46,305 bases of DNA from Frankia torreyi (lineage in GTDB: Bacteria; Actinomycetota; Actinomycetes; Frankiales; Frankiaceae), in NCBI RefSeq assembly GCF_000948395.1, contig NZ_JYFN01000002.1:93658-139962 (forward strand). The letters are read 5' to 3'. Each line of letters starts with the position of its first letter. Within the stretch, counting starts at the first letter, position 1. A program made the translations under genes and the position numbers. Shown here in pieces: positions 319-39,664 of this stretch. The notes beneath the pieces are model-generated. The model was given only the letters and a program-made list of their open reading frames with translations. It did not search any database and had not been told where the DNA came from.

Positions 319-1920
319 TCAGTGTGGGGTGTCGTGCAGGATGCGGCCGCGCAGCACGGTGCGCCGGCAGCGGGGGGTGGGGCCGGTGAGGTCGGGCAGG
401 CCGGCGACGGCGCCGCGGGGGTCGGTGGACCAGGCGGCGATGCGGGTGTCGGGGGCCTGGACGACGAGGTCGCCGTGGTGGTCCCAGACGGCGTAGGTGG
501 CGGGGTGGCCGGGGGCGAGGATGCCGTGGCCGTCGGTGTCGGCGCGGGCGGCGCGCCAGCCGCCGCGGCTGGCGGCGGTGAAGGCGGCGCGGGCGGAGAT
601 GCGGGCGGCGGGGGTGTGGTGGTGTGCGGCGGCGCGGATGGCGCCCCAGGGGTCCAGGGGGGTGACGGGGGCGTCGGAGGAGAAGGCCAGCGTGATGCCG
701 GCGCGGGTCATGGCGGCGTAGGGGTTCATGGCGCTGGCGCGGGTGGGGCCGAGGCGGGTGGCGTACATGCCGTCCTCGCCGCCCCAGCGGGCGTCGAAGG
801 CGGGTTGGGCGCTGACGATGATGCCGAGGGCGGCCAGGCGTGGGAGGTGGTCGGTGGTGGTCATCTCGGCGTGTTCGAGGCGGTGGCGGCCGGCGGCGAT
901 GCGGGCGAGTCCGATTGTGGTGGCGGCGGCCTCCAGGCCGGTGAGCACGGTGGTGATGGCGGCGTCGCCGATGGCGTGGAAGCCGGTCTGCAGGCCGGCG
1001 TCGGTGGCGTCGAGGACGGCGTCGCGGATGGCGTCGGCGTCGAGGTGCAGGGTGCCGTGGGTGTGGGGGCGGTCGGCGTAGGGGGTGTGCAGGGCGGCGG
1101 TGTGGGAGCCCAGGGAACCGTCGACGAAGGCGTCGCCGCCCCAGGCGGCGCCGAGTTCGACGGCGGTGGGCAGGTCGCCGGCCCAGTAGCCGACGATGTC
1201 GGGTCCGGTGACGGTGCGGGCGTGGGCGAGCAGGCCGGCGAGGTCGTCGGCGGAGGAGACGTCGGGTCCGGCCATCTCGTGCAGGGCGGCGATGCCGAGG
1301 GCGGCGGCGTGGGTGCGGGTGGTCTGCCAGGCGTGGCGGCGCTGGCTGGGGGTCAGGGTGGTGTCGGCGGTGCGGCGGGCGGCGTGGTGGGCGGTGCCGG
1401 TGACGAGGCCGTCGGGGTGCCAGCCGGGGTGGGTGGCGGCGTCGGCGGCGGTGGCCAGGGCGGTGGAGATCACGGCGGTGTGCCCGTCGACGCGGGCGAG
1501 GTAGACGGGGGCGCCGCCGGTGGCGCGGTCGAGTTCGCCGGCGGTGGGGGGTGTGGGGTCGGCCCAGGTGGTCTCGTCCCAGCCAGTGCCGAAGACGGTG
1601 GTGTGCCGGTGGCGGCGGGCGTGGGTGGCCAGGGCGTCGAGGGCGGCGGTGCGGGTGGGGGTGGCGGTGAGGTCGAGGCCGGTCAGGGCGAGGCCGGTGG
1701 CGGTGGTGTGAATGTGGGCGTCGACGAAGGCGGGGGTGATCAGTGCGCCGTCGAGGTCGATGACGGTGTCGGCGTCGAGGGTGGCGGCGGTGTCGTCGGA
1801 GCCGATCCAGGCGATGGTGGCGTGGTCGGTGAGCATGGCGGTGGCGGTGGGGCTGGTCGGGGTGTGGATGTGGCCGCCCCGGTAGAGCACGGTGCGGCGG
1901 GGGGTGTGGGGGTCGGTCAC
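319..1920 (-). CDS. Amidohydrolase, YtcJ-like (Amidohydro_3) metal-dependent hydrolase
   Basis: A protein of 533 aa if it starts at the GTG at 1920; the frame is open further upstream, but that extension has shadow-like composition. The N-terminus shows the small beta-sandwich strand typical of the family, then the metal-binding motif VDAHIHTTATGLAL near residue 65. The later HAIGDAAI and HRLEHAEM segments supply the histidines expected of the metal-dependent hydrolase barrel, and SSDAPVTPLDPWGAI carries the C-terminal aspartate. This is the YtcJ/Amidohydro_3 architecture; such enzymes hydrolyse amide or related C-N bonds, with poorly defined substrates. It is cytosolic, with no signal peptide. 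The adjacent upstream gene is an Lrp/AsnC regulator on the same strand, which would fit amino-acid or amide catabolism, but that link is inference. Confidence 0.85.
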   Translation of the reverse strand: MTDPHTPRRTVLYRGGHIHTPTSPTATAMLTDHATIAWIGSDDTAATLDADTVIDLDGALITPAFVDAHIHTTATGLALTGLDLTATPTRTAALDALATHARRHRHTTVFGTGWDETTWADPTPPTAGELDRATGGAPVYLARVDGHTAVISTALATAADAATHPGWHPDGLVTGTAHHAARRTADTTLTPSQRRHAWQTTRTHAAALGIAALHEMAGPDVSSADDLAGLLAHARTVTGPDIVGYWAGDLPTAVELGAAWGGDAFVDGSLGSHTAALHTPYADRPHTHGTLHLDADAIRDAVLDATDAGLQTGFHAIGDAAITTVLTGLEAAATTIGLARIAAGRHRLEHAEMTTTDHLPRLAALGIIVSAQPAFDARWGGEDGMYATRLGPTRASAMNPYAAMTRAGITLAFSSDAPVTPLDPWGAIRAAAHHHTPAARISARAAFTAASRGGWRAARADTDGHGILAPGHPATYAVWDHHGDLVVQAPDTRIAAWSTDPRGAVAGLPDLTGPTPRCRRTVLRGRILHDTPH

Positions 1921-30344: not shown

Positions 30345-31991
30345 TCAGGCCGCGCCGGGCCGGCGGCCGTCGCTGCCGGGAATGCCGGGAATGCCGGGAA
30401 TGCCGTGACTGCCGTGGGTGTCGGGGATGCCGGGGTGGGAGGGCGGGTCGGGGTGGCGGGTGTCGGCGGCATTGTCGCGGCGGTATGCGCGCGCGGCGGC
30501 AATCAGGCCGGTGGCGATCTGGGGTCGGCCGGCCCAGTGCAGGTGCAGGTAGGAGGCGTGCACCCGGCGGTGGACGAAGCCCTCGGCCAGCCAGCGCGAC
30601 GGCGCCTCGGCCGGTCCCGTCACCGGGGGCGCGCCACCCAGGCGCGGCGACCCGGGGGGCGGCGCGGGTGGTAGCGTCGCGCCGGCAGGGGCGGTGGGCG
30701 CCGGGTCGACGACGGGCAGCCACCAGGCGGCCGGGGGGCCGCCGGCAGGCGGGGCAAGCAGGACAGTGCGGTGGAACTCGTGGGCGGCCAGGACGCTGCC
30801 GGCCGGCGCCAGCGGGCTGGGCGTGGCGGCGACCGCCCGGCGGTAGCCGAGGGTGAGCCGCGGGCCCATCACCGCGGCGACGTCGAGGACGGCGCACATC
30901 GGCGCGCCGTCGAGGCTGCGGGCCAGGTACAGCAGGCCGGCGCACTCGGCGGCGACGGGCGCGCCGCGGGCGGCGAACGCGGCGATCTCGCCGCGTAGCC
31001 GGGTGTTGGCGGTGAGCGCGCCGACGTGTTCCTCGGGGAAGCCCCCGCCGATGATCAGCGCGTCGGTGCCGGCGGGCAGCGTGTCGTCGCGCAGCGGGTC
31101 GACGGCGACGACGTCCGCGCCGGCGGCGGTGAGCAGCTCGACGTGCTCGGCGTAGCCGAAGGTGAACGCCGCCCCACCGGCGACGGCGATCCGCGGCGGC
31201 CGGCCCGCCGCCGTGCCTCCCACGGTGGCCAGCGCCGCAGCCGGGTCCCAGGCCTCGGTGCGCAGCGGCGGGGCGGCGCGGGCGACGCGCAGCAGACCGT
31301 CGAGGTCGCAGGAGGCGGCGACGAGCGCGCCGAGGCGGTCGACGGCGTCGAGCGCGGCCGGGCGGCGTTCGGCGGCGGGCACCAGGCCCAGGTGACGCGA
31401 CGGGGTGTGCACGGACTGCTCGCGGGGGACCGCGCCGAACACCGCCACCCCGATGCCGCCCAGCGCCTCGGTGAGCAGCTCGCGGTGGCGCGGCGAGCCG
31501 ACCCGGTTGAGGATCACCCCGGCCAGGTGGATGCGCCGGTCGAACGACCGGAACCCGGCGACGAGCGCGGCGATGGACCGGGCCGCGCCGGAGACGTCGA
31601 CGACGAGGATGACCGGAGCGTCGAGCAGCCGGGCGACATGCGCGGTGGAGGCGTGGTCGGCGGCCTCGCCGGGCTGCGGGCGGGCGACCCCGTCGAACAG
31701 GCCCATCACGCCCTCGACGACGGCGACGTCGGCACCGCGCGCGCCGTGGGCGAACAGCGGGGCCAGGCGCGCCGGGCCGCACAGCACCGCGTCCAGGTTG
31801 CGTCCGGGGCGGCCGGTGGCCAGCGCGTGGTAGCCGGGGTCGATGTAGTCGGGGCCGACCTTGTGCGGGGAGACGCGCAGCCCGCGGGCGCGCAGCGCGG
31901 CCATCAGCCCGGTGGTCACCGTCGTCTTGCCGGCGCCGCTGGTCGGGGCGGCCAGCACGAGGCGGGGCAGCGCGAGCGGCGCGCTCACCAC
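30345..31991 (-). CDS. cobB: Cobyrinate a,c-diamide synthase
   Basis: 548 aa from GTG 31991 (GTGGTG; the second GTG is also possible). Domain 1 is an ATP-dependent dethiobiotin-synthetase-like P-loop domain: Walker A APTSGAGKTT (residues 15-24), KVGPDYIDPGYH, and VVEGVMGLFDG. Domain 2 is a class I glutamine amidotransferase with the active-site cysteine in VAAECAGLLYL and a late HEFHRT histidine. The enzyme amidates the a and c side chains of cobyrinate using glutamine and ATP. The C-terminus carries a tail with repeated GIP units from a 9-bp repeat at about 30379-30410 that is not part of the enzyme. Gap to cobO is 4 nt. Confidence 0.95.
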   Translation of the reverse strand: MVSAPLALPRLVLAAPTSGAGKTTVTTGLMAALRARGLRVSPHKVGPDYIDPGYHALATGRPGRNLDAVLCGPARLAPLFAHGARGADVAVVEGVMGLFDGVARPQPGEAADHASTAHVARLLDAPVILVVDVSGAARSIAALVAGFRSFDRRIHLAGVILNRVGSPRHRELLTEALGGIGVAVFGAVPREQSVHTPSRHLGLVPAAERRPAALDAVDRLGALVAASCDLDGLLRVARAAPPLRTEAWDPAAALATVGGTAAGRPPRIAVAGGAAFTFGYAEHVELLTAAGADVVAVDPLRDDTLPAGTDALIIGGGFPEEHVGALTANTRLRGEIAAFAARGAPVAAECAGLLYLARSLDGAPMCAVLDVAAVMGPRLTLGYRRAVAATPSPLAPAGSVLAAHEFHRTVLLAPPAGGPPAAWWLPVVDPAPTAPAGATLPPAPPPGSPRLGGAPPVTGPAEAPSRWLAEGFVHRRVHASYLHLHWAGRPQIATGLIAAARAYRRDNAADTRHPDPPSHPGIPDTHGSHGIPGIPGIPGSDGRRPGAA

Positions 31992-31995
31992 GCGC

Positions 31996-32604
31996 TTACC
32001 ATTCGATCCCCCGCTGCCCCTTCTGCCCGGCGTCCATCGGATGACGGATCTTCGTCATCTCGGTGACGAGGTCGGCGGCGTCGAGCAGCTCCTGCGGGGC
32101 GCGCCGGCCGGTGACGACGACGTGCTGGCGGCCCGGGCGGGTGCGCAGGGTCTCGACGACCTCGGCGACGTCGAGCCAGCCCCAGCGCAGCGGGTAGGTC
32201 AGCTCGTCGAGCACGTAGAGCCGGTAGGTCTGCGCGGCCAGGTCGCGGCGGATCTGCGCCCAGCCTTCCGCGGCCGCGGCCGCGGGATCGCCGTCGGGAT
32301 CGACGCGGTCACGTACCCAGCTCCACCCGGAGCCCATCTTGTGCCAGTCGACGGTGCCGCCCGCGCCGGAGTCGGCGAGCACCCGCAGGGCGCGTTCCTC
32401 GCCGATGCGCCACTTGGCGGACTTGACGAACTGGAACACCCCGACCGGCCAGCCCTGCGACCAGGCGCGCAACGCCAGGCCGAACGCGGCGGTCGACTTC
32501 CCCTTGCCGTCGCCGGTGTGCACGATCAGCAGCGGCCGGTCGCGGCGTTCGCGGGTGGTCAGTCCGTCGTCGGGGACGCTGGCCGGCTGCCCCTGCGGCG
32601 CCAT
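31996..32604 (-). CDS. cobO: Cob(I)yrinic acid a,c-diamide adenosyltransferase
   Basis: 202 aa from ATG 32604, one base after the chelatase stop. It has the P-loop HTGDGKGKST (residues 29-38), FQFVKSAKWRIGEERAL, the YVLDELTYPLRWGWLD segment and the VTGRRAPQELLDAADLVTEM end, all typical of the BtuR/CobO-type adenosyltransferase. The enzyme transfers the 5'-deoxyadenosyl group of ATP to the cobalt of reduced corrinoid. It fits between the chelatase (cobalt insertion) and CobB as part of the late pathway. The substrate naming follows the operon context. Confidence 0.95.
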   Translation of the reverse strand: MAPQGQPASVPDDGLTTRERRDRPLLIVHTGDGKGKSTAAFGLALRAWSQGWPVGVFQFVKSAKWRIGEERALRVLADSGAGGTVDWHKMGSGWSWVRDRVDPDGDPAAAAAEGWAQIRRDLAAQTYRLYVLDELTYPLRWGWLDVAEVVETLRTRPGRQHVVVTGRRAPQELLDAADLVTEMTKIRHPMDAGQKGQRGIEW

Positions 32605-32605
32605 C

Positions 32606-35185
32606 TCAGGCCGCCTTTCTGGCGCGCGGGCGTGGGCGCGGTGCCGGCGGTGCCGGTGCCGTCGGCGGCGTCGGTGCCGTCGGCGGCGTCGGCCGGGTCG
32701 TCGGCGGTGGGGTCGTCGGCGGTGGGGTCGTCGGCGGTGGGGTCAGCAGCGGCAGGGCGTCGAGGGGGATCGTGATCCCGTCGAGGGCGTGGGCGAGCCG
32801 GCCGGCCAGCCCCAGGCGCAGGAAGCCGCTCTCGCAGTCGACGACGACGCTGGCCAGCCCGCCGCGGCCCGCGGTGCCCCCCGGGCCGCGCCCGCCGCGG
32901 GGCCGACTGGTGGCCGGTCCGCCCGCGCCACCGGCGGCGCGGACCAGGGCGCGGGCCACTGGCAGCGGGTCGGCGCCGGCGGTGGCGCGCCCGTCGGTGA
33001 CGACGACGAGCAGGGCGCGCCGGGCCGGGTCGCGGCGCCGTTCGGCGCGCAGGACCTGCCCGGCGCGGGTGAGCCCGGCGGCCAGCGGGGTGCGCCCGCC
33101 GGTCGGCAGCGCGCGCAGCCGGGCGGCGCCGACCTCGACGCTGGCGGTGGGGGCGAGCACCACCTCGGCGCTCGACCCCCGAAAGGTGATCATGCCGATG
33201 CGGTCGCGGCGCTGGTAGGCGTCGGTGAGCAGGGCGAGCACGGCGGTGGTGACCAGGGTCATCCGGGCCTGGGCGGCCATCGACCCGCTGGCGTCGACGA
33301 CGAACAGCACCAGGTTGCCCTCGCGGCCCACCCGCACCGCGCCGCGCCGGTCGGCGGGCAGCAGGATCGGGGCGGGCCCGTGCCGGCCGCGGGCGTGCTG
33401 GTGGGGGGCGGCGGCCAGCAGGGTGGCGGGCAGGTGCAGCCCGGGGGCGTCGGCGGCGGTGGTGACCACCGCCCCGCGGCTGCCGCGGGCCAGGGAGCGG
33501 CGCCCGGCGGCACCGGCGGCGGTGCCCAGGCCGGCGACGGCGAGCAGCCGGGGTCGAAACGCCGCCCCGGGCGCCCCGGCGACTCCGACCCCGGCGGCGG
33601 CCGGGTCGGGTGGGCCGCCGGCGTGACCCGATCCCGGGGTGCTCGCGGTGAACGGGGGGAACGGTGCCGGTGGGAGGGTGAGATGTCCCCCGCCCGCCCG
33701 GTGCCCGCGCGCCGCGCTGCCAGGTCCGGGGCCGGCGGGGCCGCGGTGGGTCCTGCCGGCCGTCGCGGGCAGCCGCGGATCGTCGGCGCCCGGCTGCGCG
33801 CCCGGGTCGGCCGCCGGGTCGCCGCCGTCCGCCGGCGACCGCCCGTGCAGCCCGCTGCCAGCGCCGAAGGGGCCGCCGGGGCCGATGTGGTCGTCGCCGT
33901 GTGACGCGCCGCCGCCGGGGCCGTCCGGGCCGCCGTCGGGGTCGTTGCCATCGGGGTCGTCGTCCGGGCTCGGGCCGCGGCCGTCCGGGCCGCTGCTGTC
34001 GACGCCGCGGCCGCCGTGGGTGTCGCCGGCGGTGTCCCGCCGCGAGCGTGCGCCCTCGCCGTCCGTGCCGTCGGCGTCGCCGTGCGCCGCACGGTCGGGG
34101 TCGGCCGCCGCGTCGGCGAGTGCGGTGTCGGCGAGGGCGGTGTCGGCGAGTTCGGCGTCGGCGGTGGCGTCGAGGCCGGCGAGGGCGGCGTCGAGGGCGG
34201 CGTCGAGGGCGGCGTCGTCGAGGTCGGGGGCGTCGAACGGGCCGCGGCGGCGCCGGTGCGGCAGGGCCAGGCGCGCGCCGGCGCGGATGTCCGCGGCGCG
34301 GACCGTGCCGTGCCCGGACCAGGCGGCCAGCGCCATCGCCGTCTTCGCCAGGACGACGTCCGCGCGCATTCCGTCGACGTCGACCCCGGCGCACACGGTG
34401 CTCACCGCACGTAGTGCCGCGTCGGTCAGCGTGACGGTGGCCAGGCGGGCGCGGGCGGCGGTGACGTGGGCGGCGAGGGCCGCTTCGGCCGGCGCCCAGG
34501 CGGCAGCGAACCCGTCCGGGTCGGCTTCGAAGGCCAGCCGGCGGCGCACGACCTGCGCGCGTAGCTGCGGGTCGCGGCTGGCGGCGACCTGCACGGTCAG
34601 CCCGAACCGGTCGAGCAGCTGCGGGCGCAGCTCCCCCTCCTCCGGGTTCATGGTCCCGACCAGCAGGAACGACGCCGGATGGCGCACGGAGACCCCGTCG
34701 CGTTCGACGTGGGCGACGCCGAGCGCGGCGGCGTCGAGGAGCAGATCGACGAGATGATCACCGAGCAGGTTGACCTCGTCGACGTAGAGCACCCCGCGGT
34801 GGGCGGCGGCCAGCAGCCCCGGGCGCAGCACGCTGATCCCCTCGGCGAGCGCCCGGTCGAGGTCGACCGACCCGGTGACCCGGTCCTCGGAGGCGCCGAC
34901 GGGCAGCTCGACGAGCCGCGCCGCCCGGGTGGCCTGCGCCGCGCCGTCGGGATGCGGGCCGTCGGGGCAGTCCGGGTTCGGCGCGCTCGGCGCGCAGGCG
35001 AACCGGCAGCCGACGACCACGTCGACGCCGGGCAGCAGCGCCGCCAGCCCCCGCACGGCGGTGGACTTGGCGGTGCCCTTCTCGCCGCGCACCAGCACGC
35101 CGCCGAGCGTCGGACTGACCGCGTTGAGTAGCAGCGCCAGGCGCAGGTCGTCGGCGCCGACGACGGCGGACAGCGGGAAGTTCAC
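32606..35185 (-). CDS. Magnesium/cobalt-chelatase-type ATPase with AAA+ and VWA domains
   Basis: 859 aa from GTG 35185, which overlaps the leader ORF stop (GTGA); GTG 35188 is one codon upstream. The AAA+ domain (residues about 5-330) has Walker A GEKGTAKST (34-42), Walker B GVLYVDEVNLL (131-141) and FLLVGTMNPEEGELRPQLLDRFGL (sensor 1). An acidic, then Pro/Gly-rich linker follows, with DAALDAALDAA repeats. The C-terminal von Willebrand A domain has the MIDAS motif DASGSMAAQ, PTGGRTPLAAG and VVTDGRATAG. This fused ChlI+ChlD protein would energise the large CobN-type subunit for cobalt insertion; no cobN lies in the window. The tail is a TPPPTT repeat. Confidence 0.9.
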   Translation of the reverse strand: MNFPLSAVVGADDLRLALLLNAVSPTLGGVLVRGEKGTAKSTAVRGLAALLPGVDVVVGCRFACAPSAPNPDCPDGPHPDGAAQATRAARLVELPVGASEDRVTGSVDLDRALAEGISVLRPGLLAAAHRGVLYVDEVNLLGDHLVDLLLDAAALGVAHVERDGVSVRHPASFLLVGTMNPEEGELRPQLLDRFGLTVQVAASRDPQLRAQVVRRRLAFEADPDGFAAAWAPAEAALAAHVTAARARLATVTLTDAALRAVSTVCAGVDVDGMRADVVLAKTAMALAAWSGHGTVRAADIRAGARLALPHRRRRGPFDAPDLDDAALDAALDAALAGLDATADAELADTALADTALADAAADPDRAAHGDADGTDGEGARSRRDTAGDTHGGRGVDSSGPDGRGPSPDDDPDGNDPDGGPDGPGGGASHGDDHIGPGGPFGAGSGLHGRSPADGGDPAADPGAQPGADDPRLPATAGRTHRGPAGPGPGSAARGHRAGGGHLTLPPAPFPPFTASTPGSGHAGGPPDPAAAGVGVAGAPGAAFRPRLLAVAGLGTAAGAAGRRSLARGSRGAVVTTAADAPGLHLPATLLAAAPHQHARGRHGPAPILLPADRRGAVRVGREGNLVLFVVDASGSMAAQARMTLVTTAVLALLTDAYQRRDRIGMITFRGSSAEVVLAPTASVEVGAARLRALPTGGRTPLAAGLTRAGQVLRAERRRDPARRALLVVVTDGRATAGADPLPVARALVRAAGGAGGPATSRPRGGRGPGGTAGRGGLASVVVDCESGFLRLGLAGRLAHALDGITIPLDALPLLTPPPTTPPPTTPPPTTRPTPPTAPTPPTAPAPPAPRPRPRARKAA

Positions 35186-35283
35186 CACCGCCGCGCCGCC
35201 GCGACCACGTGCCGATCGTGCCGATCGTGCCGATGCGGCCGATCGCGCCGATGGGGCGTCCGATGGGACGGTGTTGCAGGCAT
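35182..35283 (-). CDS. His/Arg-rich leader ORF between riboswitch and chelatase gene
   Basis: 33 codons from ATG 35283 to TGA at 35182-35184. A clear Shine-Dalgarno (GGAGGA, minus strand, at 35291-35296) lies 7 nt upstream, while the chelatase's own start has none. The stop overlaps the chelatase GTG (GTGA), the classic arrangement of translational coupling. The peptide has six His and ten Arg, with a repeated H-D-R motif coded by a 9-bp repeat at about 35215-35240, and ends V-V-A-A-A-R-R-W. Codon positions are not strongly GC3-biased. It may be a true peptide (possible cobalt binding) or just a ribosome-loading device. I know no homologue. Confidence 0.6.
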   Translation of the reverse strand: MPATPSHRTPHRRDRPHRHDRHDRHVVAAARRW

Positions 35284-35326
35284 GCTGATGTCCTCCCGGA
35301 GGGTCCTCGCCCTTGGTGATCACCCT

Positions 35327-35571
35327 GCGACGGCCGGAGTATCCTGGCTCCCGGGTCGACGCGCGCCTTCGGCCTTCCAGCCGCCTGCCGCGGCCGTGAC
35401 CCGTCGTCCCACCCGGTGCCGGGAAGTCCGCTCCCAGCCCGGGCGCGACGATCACCGGATGTGCCCTCCTGCGCCGCGTCGCGCCGGTGGATCCACCCGG
35501 GAAGACGCACTTCCCGGTGACAGTGGCGGGACCGCGCCGGATTCACACCGGCTTCCTCCCGAAGCTGTCGC
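35327..35571 (-). ncRNA. Cobalamin riboswitch
   Basis: On the minus strand the aptamer core reads GGGAGGAAGCCGGTG, TGAATCCGGCGCGGTCCCGC and CCACTGTCA (35561 to about 35518), the strongly conserved B12-riboswitch segment. The B12 box, GGGAGCCAGGATACTCCGGC, follows at 35352-35333. A P1 helix can form between GCGAC (35571-35567) and GTCGC (35331-35327). Downstream, GGTGATCACC (35324-35315) and a CCTC/GAGG pairing over the leader-ORF ribosome site (about 35291-35302) could form the expression platform. It should repress the chelatase-cobO-cobB-cobE operon when adenosylcobalamin is plentiful. Confidence 0.93.
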
Positions 35572-35616
35572 GTTCGCCAGCATGACATATCCGCCGACGT
35601 CGAGGAGGCCCCCGCG

Positions 35617-37074: not shown

Positions 37075-37099
37075 GATCGTGGCGTCCTATCCTGTCCGG

Positions 37100-37906
37100 A
37101 TGCAGGAATCCATGGCGGGTCACGAACGTCCGGCGCGCGGCTTCGAGCTGATCTGCGAGATCGAGCCGCCGACCCGGCCGGACCTGACCCACGCCCGCCA
37201 CCAGATCGGCGTCCTGAGCCCCGTCACCGATGCGTTCCTGATCCCCGACAACCACATCGGACGCGCGACGGTGTCGAGCATCGCCGTCGCCCACGAGGTG
37301 CAGACCATGGGGGGACGCAGCATCGCCTGCGTGAACTCCCGCGACCGTAACCTGCTCGGCTTCCGCCGCGACCTGCTCACCGCCGCGGCCTACGGCGTCG
37401 AGGAGTTCCTGTTCGTCCACGGCGACAAACCCACCGCCGGGAACCGGACCAGCGACCTGACCGTGCGCGCGATGATGGACGAGGCCCGCGCGGCCAGCGA
37501 GGATCCGGCCTTCGCGGACTCGCCGGCGTTCCGGGTCGGCGCCGCGGCCGGCCTACGTCCACTGCCCGCATGGAAACGAGCGGCCGACTTCCTGTTCGTG
37601 CAGGTCAGCTACTCGGTCGACGCCTTGCTGCGCTGGCGCGACGCCCATCCGGTCGCACTGCCGGTCTACGCCGGCGTGATGGTCCTCGCGAGCGCCGGGA
37701 TGGCCCGCCGCCTCGCCGCGACCATCCCCGACATCGACATCCCCGACGACCTCGTCCACGCGGTCGAACGGGACCAGGTGGCCGGGGTCGAAGCGGCCTG
37801 CGACCAGGTACTACGGCTGCGCGACAGCGGCGCCTTCGCCGGTGTGCACCTCGTTCCGGTCAGCCGCTACCGCCAGGTCGCCACCCGACTTGAGGACCTT
37901 CTCTAA
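37100..37906 (+). CDS. Methylenetetrahydrofolate-reductase-like protein
   Basis: 268 aa from ATG 37100; TATCCT (37088-37093) is a possible -10 placing transcription start near the ATG. The TIM-barrel pattern of MetF relatives can be followed: FELICEIEPPTRPDL (with the active-site Glu region), ITDAFLIPDNHIGRATVSS-like strand, GGRSIACVNSRDRNLLGFRRDLLTAAAYGVEEFLFVHGDKPT (FAD-contacting GDxP), VGAAAGLRP, ADFLFVQVSYSVDAL and VYAGVMVLASAGMARRLA. Length is near that of E. coli MetF (about 296). It may act in one-carbon transfer or as a catabolic demethylation partner. FAD is expected as cofactor. Confidence 0.8.
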   Translation: MQESMAGHERPARGFELICEIEPPTRPDLTHARHQIGVLSPVTDAFLIPDNHIGRATVSSIAVAHEVQTMGGRSIACVNSRDRNLLGFRRDLLTAAAYGVEEFLFVHGDKPTAGNRTSDLTVRAMMDEARAASEDPAFADSPAFRVGAAAGLRPLPAWKRAADFLFVQVSYSVDALLRWRDAHPVALPVYAGVMVLASAGMARRLAATIPDIDIPDDLVHAVERDQVAGVEAACDQVLRLRDSGAFAGVHLVPVSRYRQVATRLEDLL

Positions 37907-38980: not shown

Positions 38981-39664
38981 ATGCAGCCAGACGCGTCCCC
39001 CGCGATGCGAGCCGTCCCGCCCGGGCAGGTGACCCTGTCGGACCGGCGCACCCAGTGCCGCTGGTCAGTGGAGCTCGCCCCCTACTGGCTGGCGGCCTTC
39101 CCCGTCACCCAGGAGCAGTACACGCGGATCACCGGCCAGCGGCCGAGCAGTATCCACGGCGACGGGCTGCCCGTCGAGGGCATCAGCTGGTGGGACGCTG
39201 TCCGATTCTGCAACGCCCTGTCCCGGCACGAGAGGTTGACACCGGCGTACCGGTTGCCTGACGGCGACGGCGACGGCGACGTGATCGCGTGGGATGCCGG
39301 GGCCGACGGATACCGGCTGCCGACCGAGGCGGAGTGGGAACACGCCTGCCGTGCCGGCACAACGGGGCCCCGCTACGGCCGGCTCGACGACATCGCCTGG
39401 TATCGCGCCAACGCGGGCGGGCGGCCCCAGGACGTGGGCGGCCGGGTGGCCAACGCGTGGGGCCTGCACGACATGCTGGGCAATGTGTGGGAATGGTGCT
39501 GGGACGTCTACGACGCCGAGGTCTACGGCACCTACCGGGTGCTGCGCGGCGGCGGGTGGTTCGACGAGGAGTGGAGCTGCCGGGCCTCGGTGCGCCGCCG
39601 CAGCCATCCGACGGTGCGCCTCGACGACGTGGGCCTGCGCGTCGCGCGTTCCGTCACCGGATGA
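38981..39664 (+). CDS. Formylglycine-generating enzyme (FGE-sulfatase/SUMF1) domain protein
   Basis: 227 aa from ATG 38981. The SUMF1 fold is recognisable in order: SVELAPYWLAAFPVTQEQYTRITG, VEGISWWDAVRFCNALS, YRLPTEAEWEHACRAGTTGPRYG, LDDIAWYRANAGGRPQDVGGRVANAWGLHDMLGNVWEWCWD, and LRGGGWFDEEWSCRASVRR. Full-length FGEs use two cysteines near the C-terminus to oxidise the sulfatase cysteine; here one cysteine is in WSCRAS and the next position reads RRRSHP, so only one is evident. It may serve another role, as in diversity-generating or NRPS-linked homologues. No sulfatase lies in the window. Confidence 0.88.
   Translation: MQPDASPAMRAVPPGQVTLSDRRTQCRWSVELAPYWLAAFPVTQEQYTRITGQRPSSIHGDGLPVEGISWWDAVRFCNALSRHERLTPAYRLPDGDGDGDVIAWDAGADGYRLPTEAEWEHACRAGTTGPRYGRLDDIAWYRANAGGRPQDVGGRVANAWGLHDMLGNVWEWCWDVYDAEVYGTYRVLRGGGWFDEEWSCRASVRRRSHPTVRLDDVGLRVARSVTG

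Follow-up and report, generated by a model that had tools for sequence, protein, structure and literature searches.

A vitamin B12 (cobalamin) riboswitch of Frankia torreyi, predicted on the minus strand of a 46,305-nucleotide (nt) stretch of DNA that we call the window, precedes a cobaltochelatase gene that is followed by cobO and cobB. Between the aptamer and the chelatase lies a short open reading frame (ORF), hereafter the leader, whose stop codon overlaps the chelatase start. This locus served as the reference for a comparison of riboswitch-led chelatase genes. The features on which the analysis rests, including the Shine-Dalgarno (SD) sequence of the leader, are as follows; numbers beginning with L denote loci.

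35325–35572, minus strand: cobalamin riboswitch aptamer, ends approximate (RF00174 match, with the 3′ half set by the B12 box and by the match in the relative L006)
35339–35350, minus strand: B12 box GAGCCAGGATAC, the true 3′ part of the aptamer (read from sequence; the same or a similar motif occupies the same place in family relatives)
35300–35313, minus strand: P13-like hairpin AGGG-CGAGGA-CCCT adjoining the ribosome site (GGG-loop-CCC core and stem covariation)
35291–35297, minus strand: SD of the leader, GGGAGGA (duplex energy −10.3; positioned with respect to the hairpin like the chelatase SD in hairpin-bearing loci of direct type)
35182–35283, minus strand: leader ORF of 33 codons, ATG at 35283–35281 and stop TGA at 35184–35182, the putative ribosome entry port
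35182–35185, minus strand: GTGA, the putative relay point, where the chelatase GTG (35185–35183) overlaps the leader TGA (read from sequence; an NTGA overlap defines the 25 leader-type loci)
32606–35185, minus strand: cobaltochelatase, a BchI/BchD-type fusion protein (TIGR02442, expectation (E) value 1.2e-208, under the curated cut-off; AAA and VWA domains)
31996–32604, minus strand: cobO/cobA-type corrinoid adenosyltransferase, right after the chelatase gene (TIGR00708, above cut-off)
30345–31991, minus strand: cobB, cobyrinic acid a,c-diamide synthase (NF002204, above cut-off)

The aptamer and the two start sites

The window matched the Rfam family RF00174 at 35552–35439 (minus strand; model positions 51–163) with 33.4 bits against a gathering score of 31.5, and by score the riboswitch belongs to this family; its binding of B12 is a prediction. 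The Rfam alignment misplaces the 3′ half of the aptamer: the partial match falls about 90 nt short of the true B12 box, and in L006 the match (model positions 46–168) stops just past the B12 box. In the window, 246 nt separate aptamer loop L5 from the start, whereas the seven loci of genera g2, g3 and g5 that could be read have 151–156 nt; the window aptamer therefore carries an insert of about 90 nt between the two halves. The RF00174 scores of leader-type loci were 72–83 bits in the family's other genera and 25–42 bits in the window's own genus.

The original prediction, made from the window sequence, described a 33-codon ORF with a strong SD behind the aptamer, a chelatase start without an SD, and a leader stop overlapping the chelatase GTG as GTGA. 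This description was confirmed with small corrections. The duplex energy with the 16S tail was −10.3 for the leader start versus −5.0 for the chelatase GTG, which is thus weakly served, and the overlap occupies 35185–35182. The chelatase start consists of two adjacent in-frame GTG codons (35188–35183), either of which may be the restart codon.

Leader ORFs at riboswitch-led chelatase loci

In the family set of 35 genomes, the chelatase was sought at an E value of 1e-60 and was present in 31. Among the upstream regions, 16 (the window included) carried an SD-led leader with an NTGA overlap. Three members (L009, L014 and L023) were fused: the same SD and ATG stand in frame with the chelatase, and the start codon at the boundary is gone. 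In ten others, the chelatase start follows directly after an SD and riboswitch-like sequence lies upstream; four of these ten matched Rfam at E 0.01 and seven at a genome-wide E of 0.001, all under the gathering score. Rfam found no riboswitch upstream of the chelatase in two members, L025 and L041, and the L025 gene is preceded by a frame resembling the end of cobN. Within the window's genus, the chelatase was present in 10 of 13 genomes; all ten keep the leader start, eight as a relay and two as a fusion.

Class-wide, 173 of 393 genomes held the chelatase, and 60 upstream regions were taken from outside the family. The matches listed also included 80 named loci, mostly from Streptomyces; in many of these a long frame, assigned to cobN by its sequence and not by a profile search, reaches and often overlaps the chelatase start, and six of the 80 have a B12-box motif in the 500 nt upstream. 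Rfam searches covered the window and 109 loci; 66 of these 109 matched at E 0.01 (62 to RF00174 and 4 to RF01482). The 109 loci comprised the 60 from outside the family (33 matched), 39 of the 41 loci L005–L045 (24 matched; L022 and L045 lay outside the set) and 10 taken from the 80 named loci (9 matched) because a B12 box was seen or no cobN-like frame was present. The 66 matched loci, the window and L024, which was included despite missing E 0.01 at the locus level and scored 25.1 bits in the genome-wide scan, make 68; subtraction of L029, whose riboswitch lies more than 450 nt upstream, leaves 67 classified loci, 57 of them above the gathering score. Six loci of direct type by sequence (L032, L034–L037 and L040) had no match at E 0.01 and were left out; in three of their genomes the genome-wide scan has a match at that place.

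Within the stretch from the aptamer to the conserved chelatase domain, the start codon with the strongest SD determined the class of each locus. This start opened a leader ORF with a GTGA or ATGA overlap in 25 of the 67 loci and was in frame with the chelatase in 42, where it lay 2–13 codons before the domain in 38 loci and 19–52 codons in four; in no locus did it fall in any other, dead frame. The leaders came from the window's family (16) and from the families f10 (1), f17 (2), f28 (3) and f48 (1); Blastococcus and Modestobacter contributed one each. These counts support the earlier proposal that the riboswitch-proximal start is that of the leader and that the operon may be reached through the overlap. 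Relatives with a riboswitch and neither leader nor overlap, which the original prediction had named as evidence against itself, do exist, namely the 42 loci with an in-frame start, but the 25 others keep the overlap and none is uncoupled. Twenty of the 25 leader spans contain no in-frame start codon except one at −3. A chelatase-frame stop lies inside the leader span of L010, L013 and L020, so starts upstream of that stop cannot feed the gene in frame.

A hairpin adjoins the ribosome site

A GGG-loop-CCC hairpin core (loop CG[T/A/C]GGA plus 0–2 nt) was found in 42 of the 67 loci, including all 25 of leader type. The stem extension covaries, with a mean flank pairing of 1.81 versus 0.93 for shuffled flanks over 21 distinct flank pairs, and 0 of 20000 shuffles as high; because related rows are not independent, this covariation is support rather than proof. 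Wherever the core is present (25 leader and 17 in-frame loci), it is followed by the start codon at 15–24 nt, and the leader start of these loci is therefore positionally equal to the chelatase start of the direct type. The 25 remaining in-frame loci are without the exact core; ten of them show no trace of the motif and use another platform.

The hairpin loop resembles L13, the partner of aptamer loop L5 in B12 riboswitches (PMC11260477). L5 reads CCAC in most loci where it was found, and the hairpin loop reads GUGG, GCGG or GAGG. The original prediction had instead pointed to a short upstream CCTC as a partner of the ribosome site. This pairing is possible in the window, where CCTC at 35302–35299 is able to pair with GAGG at 35295–35292 in competition with the GGG-loop-CCC core, but it is not conserved, being kept in 6 of the 25 leader loci, all in the window's genus. 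We therefore rejected a CCTC/GAGG anti-SD hairpin as a conserved switch.

The reading frame is kept while the leader varies

A chelatase tree was built from 54 of the 67 loci; the other 13, all of in-frame type, came without a long enough fetched coding stretch. On this tree the leader state needs eight changes, at least five of them forced by well-supported (starred) branches, and the fused state needs three. The fused locus L014 shares a starred clade of five with four leader-type loci, and the fused L009 and L023 group with the leader-type L011 in a starred trio, which is nested in a starred clade of ten. Since the fused loci are nested in leader-type clades, fusion within the family is most simply derived from the relay.

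Over the 19 family loci, the distance from the leader start to the domain changed length at least 16 times and frame twice, and both frame changes (L014; L009 with L023) fused the leader start to the chelatase. The control distance from L5 to the leader start, readable in 17 of the 19 loci, showed 11 length changes and 8 modulo-3 changes. Two or fewer frame changes of 16 have a P of about 1.2e-5 under random frames, and the contrast with the non-coding control gave a Fisher p of 0.003; the null of one-third is approximate, since repeats in multiples of three, such as the 9-mer of the window, keep the frame by themselves. Extending the count to every locus with a leader or a long extension (29 loci) gave 23 length and 3 frame changes; the control, readable in 27 of the 29, had 20 and 14 (p 0.0002). 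The start-to-domain distance was 2 modulo 3 in all 25 leader loci. The parts of the system, their conservation, this frame lock and the switches from relay to fusion can be read directly from the sequences. In the loci compared, the leader peptide varies freely while its reading frame hardly changes.

The leader peptide

A repeat lies within the leader ORF of the window:

35208–35252, minus strand: 9-bp tandem repeat, 5 copies (Tandem Repeats Finder)

From six His and ten Arg in the window peptide, the original prediction suggested metal or RNA binding. The six His are present, but Arg was counted nine times, and the Arg/His richness is partly due to the tandem repeat. Other leaders do not keep this content and have other peptides at the equivalent place (MPPTPTPPPVATPGRPW, MVVGNDRAGVR and VLAHPV). 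Comparison of the 25 leaders gave 18 different lengths, from 6 to 55 codons, and the shared sequence is limited to an initial MP within the window's family. GC by codon position was 0.81/0.73/0.76 in the leaders versus 0.78/0.43/0.93 in the chelatases of the same loci. The window leader matched no Pfam or NCBIfam family at E 0.001, and a reading of the 25 peptides, with profile searches being those of the window leader, gave no common His or Cys motif. As composition, length and sequence all vary, we dropped the idea of a metal- or RNA-binding peptide. The leader is most likely a landing pad, of which, judging from these comparisons, just the start, the frame and the stop matter and the peptide itself is not conserved.

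The leaders of L158, L078 and L106, Blastococcus and Modestobacter among them, have six codons each, with a GTG 17 nt before the chelatase start.

Proposed mechanism and alternatives

We consider it likely that the riboswitch acts as a translational B12 OFF switch on the leader ORF and that the operon is translated by termination–reinitiation. At low B12, the SD at 35297–35291 would be free, and ribosomes would start at the ATG at 35283, read the 33 codons, stop at the TGA at 35184–35182 and restart on the overlapping chelatase GTG at 35185, by which the chelatase-cobO-cobB operon would be made. With B12 bound, the hairpin adjoining the SD would dock on the aptamer and mask the leader start; the operon would then be silent because the chelatase's own start is weak. 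B12 binding, the OFF direction, docking and termination–reinitiation are the predicted steps of this scheme.

Several observations weigh against this mechanism. In an L5–L13 kissing loop, GUGG would fit CCAC, yet the window's genus, g2 and g3 have GAGG. Folding of the free leader gave an unpaired fraction of the SD of 0.22–0.84, with 0.30 in the window, values that stand without a compared background. Ten of the 67 loci, two of them of leader type (L005 and L024), score under the gathering score. Near-ties, differing from the leader start by no more than about 1.2 kcal/mol, occur in a dead frame in L013, L078 and L106 and in frame in L158, and in the fused L014 a GTG lies in frame seven codons ahead of the boundary position. 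Stop–start overlaps are also common as such, with hundreds of NUGA pairs in Mycobacterium tuberculosis (PMC11260477). Finally, the chelatase start has an SD-like sequence of its own in L006 and L024 (−8.6) and in L018, L019 and L021 (−9.9), and some direct initiation is therefore possible.

These SD-like runs, together with the −5.0 of the window GTG, also speak for the alternative that the chelatase starts independently at the GTG at 35185 (or 35188), leader translation being incidental or serving only for Rho protection of the RNA. Such a start would not predict the frame lock or the zero count of dead-frame cases. The simplest reading of the three fused family members, which have no boundary start, is that the gene is translated from the leader start, and in ppe2 of M. 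tuberculosis a shifted stop with leader translation intact lowered expression (PMC11260477). We regard independent initiation as unlikely. The 2 modulo 3 spacing in all 25 leader loci would also allow a −1 ribosome slip at the overlap to join the frames without termination, in which case the chelatase would carry the leader peptide as an N-terminal extension; a minor fusion product is known for ppe2 (PMC11260477), programmed frameshifts occur in other chlD genes (PMC9227772), and in-frame fusions exist naturally among the relatives. However, the junction hexamer varies (TGGTGA, GGATGA, CCATGA, CGATGA) and presents no AT-rich slippery site, the extension sequence is not conserved, and the boundary start that is lost in the fused relatives is kept in the window, so that we hold a slip to be quite improbable.

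A functional His/Arg peptide, sensing metal or binding RNA, has in its favor the 6 His and 9 Arg of the window leader and the existence of metal-sensing leader proteins such as CruR (PMC9426467). This explanation appears very improbable, given the free variation among the leaders, the share of the tandem repeat in the richness of the window peptide, the lack of GC bias at the third codon position and the lack of a family match. Control of the leader start by the riboswitch, followed by reinitiation on the chelatase, is thus the explanation that we favor.

Relation to known systems

The nearest precedent is ppe2 of M. tuberculosis, whose B12 riboswitch controls the leader ORF uPPE2 (Kipkorir et al. 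2024, PMC11260477). Reporters demonstrated that PPE2 requires leader translation and that the AUGA overlap matters, termination–reinitiation being dominant and the fusion product minor (PMC11260477); a 2025 review restates this relay (PMC12713380). The window has the traits of a uPPE2-type relay, namely an SD on the leader with a weak one on the gene, and an out-of-frame leader with an NTGA overlap; the B12 aptamer and a cobalamin-related operon are also common to both. In contrast to uPPE2-PPE2, the gene here is a cobaltochelatase, the leaders (6–55 codons) keep no sequence, several families and in-frame fused relatives are involved, and the relay is a prediction from sequence.

With respect to the aptamer, the window and 62 of the 66 other classified loci match RF00174 at E 0.01 or better; three further loci match RF01482 (AdoCbl) of the same clan, and L024 matches in the genome-wide scan only. 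The window aptamer, at 33.4 bits, differs from RF00174 by its long insert. Riboswitch-led cobaltochelatases with a direct start (Nocardiopsis, Kibdelosporangium, Asanoa and others) resemble the leader type in hairpin, SD and position of the start at 17 in-frame loci, but there the start belongs to the chelatase itself, 2–13 codons before the conserved domain.

Korolev et al. (2016) proposed that actinobacterial leader genes raise translation of the next gene by reinitiation (PMC4833913). Our leaders are likewise short ORFs with proposed reinitiation; however, gene-overlapping leaders were excluded from that survey, so the present class lies outside it, and a term search of its main text found neither "riboswitch" nor "chelatase" (PMC4833913). 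A transcriptome paper on Frankia CcI3 mentions riboswitches just in general terms in the text available (PMC3188489), and the titles and abstract openings of the open-access papers listed by our searches showed no report of a leader ORF at a chelatase riboswitch. The relay mechanism was already known for ppe2; the novel elements here are the gene concerned, recurrence in several families and the switches from relay to fusion.

Other genes near or behind B12 riboswitches

Two further genes lie on the plus strand of the window near the B12 operon: a methylenetetrahydrofolate-reductase-like protein, a folate/methionine enzyme (37079–37906; PF02219), and a protein with a formylglycine-generating/sulfatase-modifying-factor domain (38981–39664; PF03781, E 4.9e-40).

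At L001, the best B12 riboswitch in the same genome is followed by a BluB gene (620–1645, minus strand; TIGR02476), whose SD-led start opens a 71-codon N-terminal extension of low complexity. In 15 relatives, a start of equal SD strength lies in frame, with 3–49 extra codons. Altogether, bluB was found at 16 of 32 riboswitch loci, and a start with an SD energy of −6.6 was in frame in all 16, with 3–71 extra codons. This start was the best-scoring one in 12 of the 16, and because stronger candidates lie elsewhere in the other four (L194, L197, L201 and L205), the bluB set was not used as a control. A ribonucleotide reductase alpha-like gene (partial, below cut-offs) lies behind a B12 riboswitch in L210 and L215. 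In L210 its leader GTG begins a 66-codon extension fused in frame to the gene, and in L215 the same GTG opens a 67-codon ORF that ends as TTGA on the TTG of the gene. A close relative of this gene was present in 5 of the 35 family genomes, too few for comparison.

Implications

The frame-kept variable extensions of bluB, and the ribonucleotide reductase leader that is fused in one genome and overlapping in another, lead us to a tentative extension beyond the chelatase, which we put forward as possible rather than probable. In high-GC actinomycetes, the riboswitch-gated start may be a fixed ribosome port, and the coding sequence behind it an insertion hot spot that moves among direct start, fusion and relay. 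Relay leaders might then be former N-terminal extensions that went out of frame and were rescued by reinitiation, or the reverse, and translational riboswitches in general could acquire leader ORFs in this way.

Our results also carry a warning that annotated gene starts behind riboswitches may be wrong. The occurrence of relay, fusion and direct start in related genomes would provide natural experiments on the evolution of riboswitches, reinitiation and leader ORFs. If the proposed mechanism holds, the single reported case of ppe2 would become a recurrent design in free-living actinomycetes, placed on a core B12-making operon.

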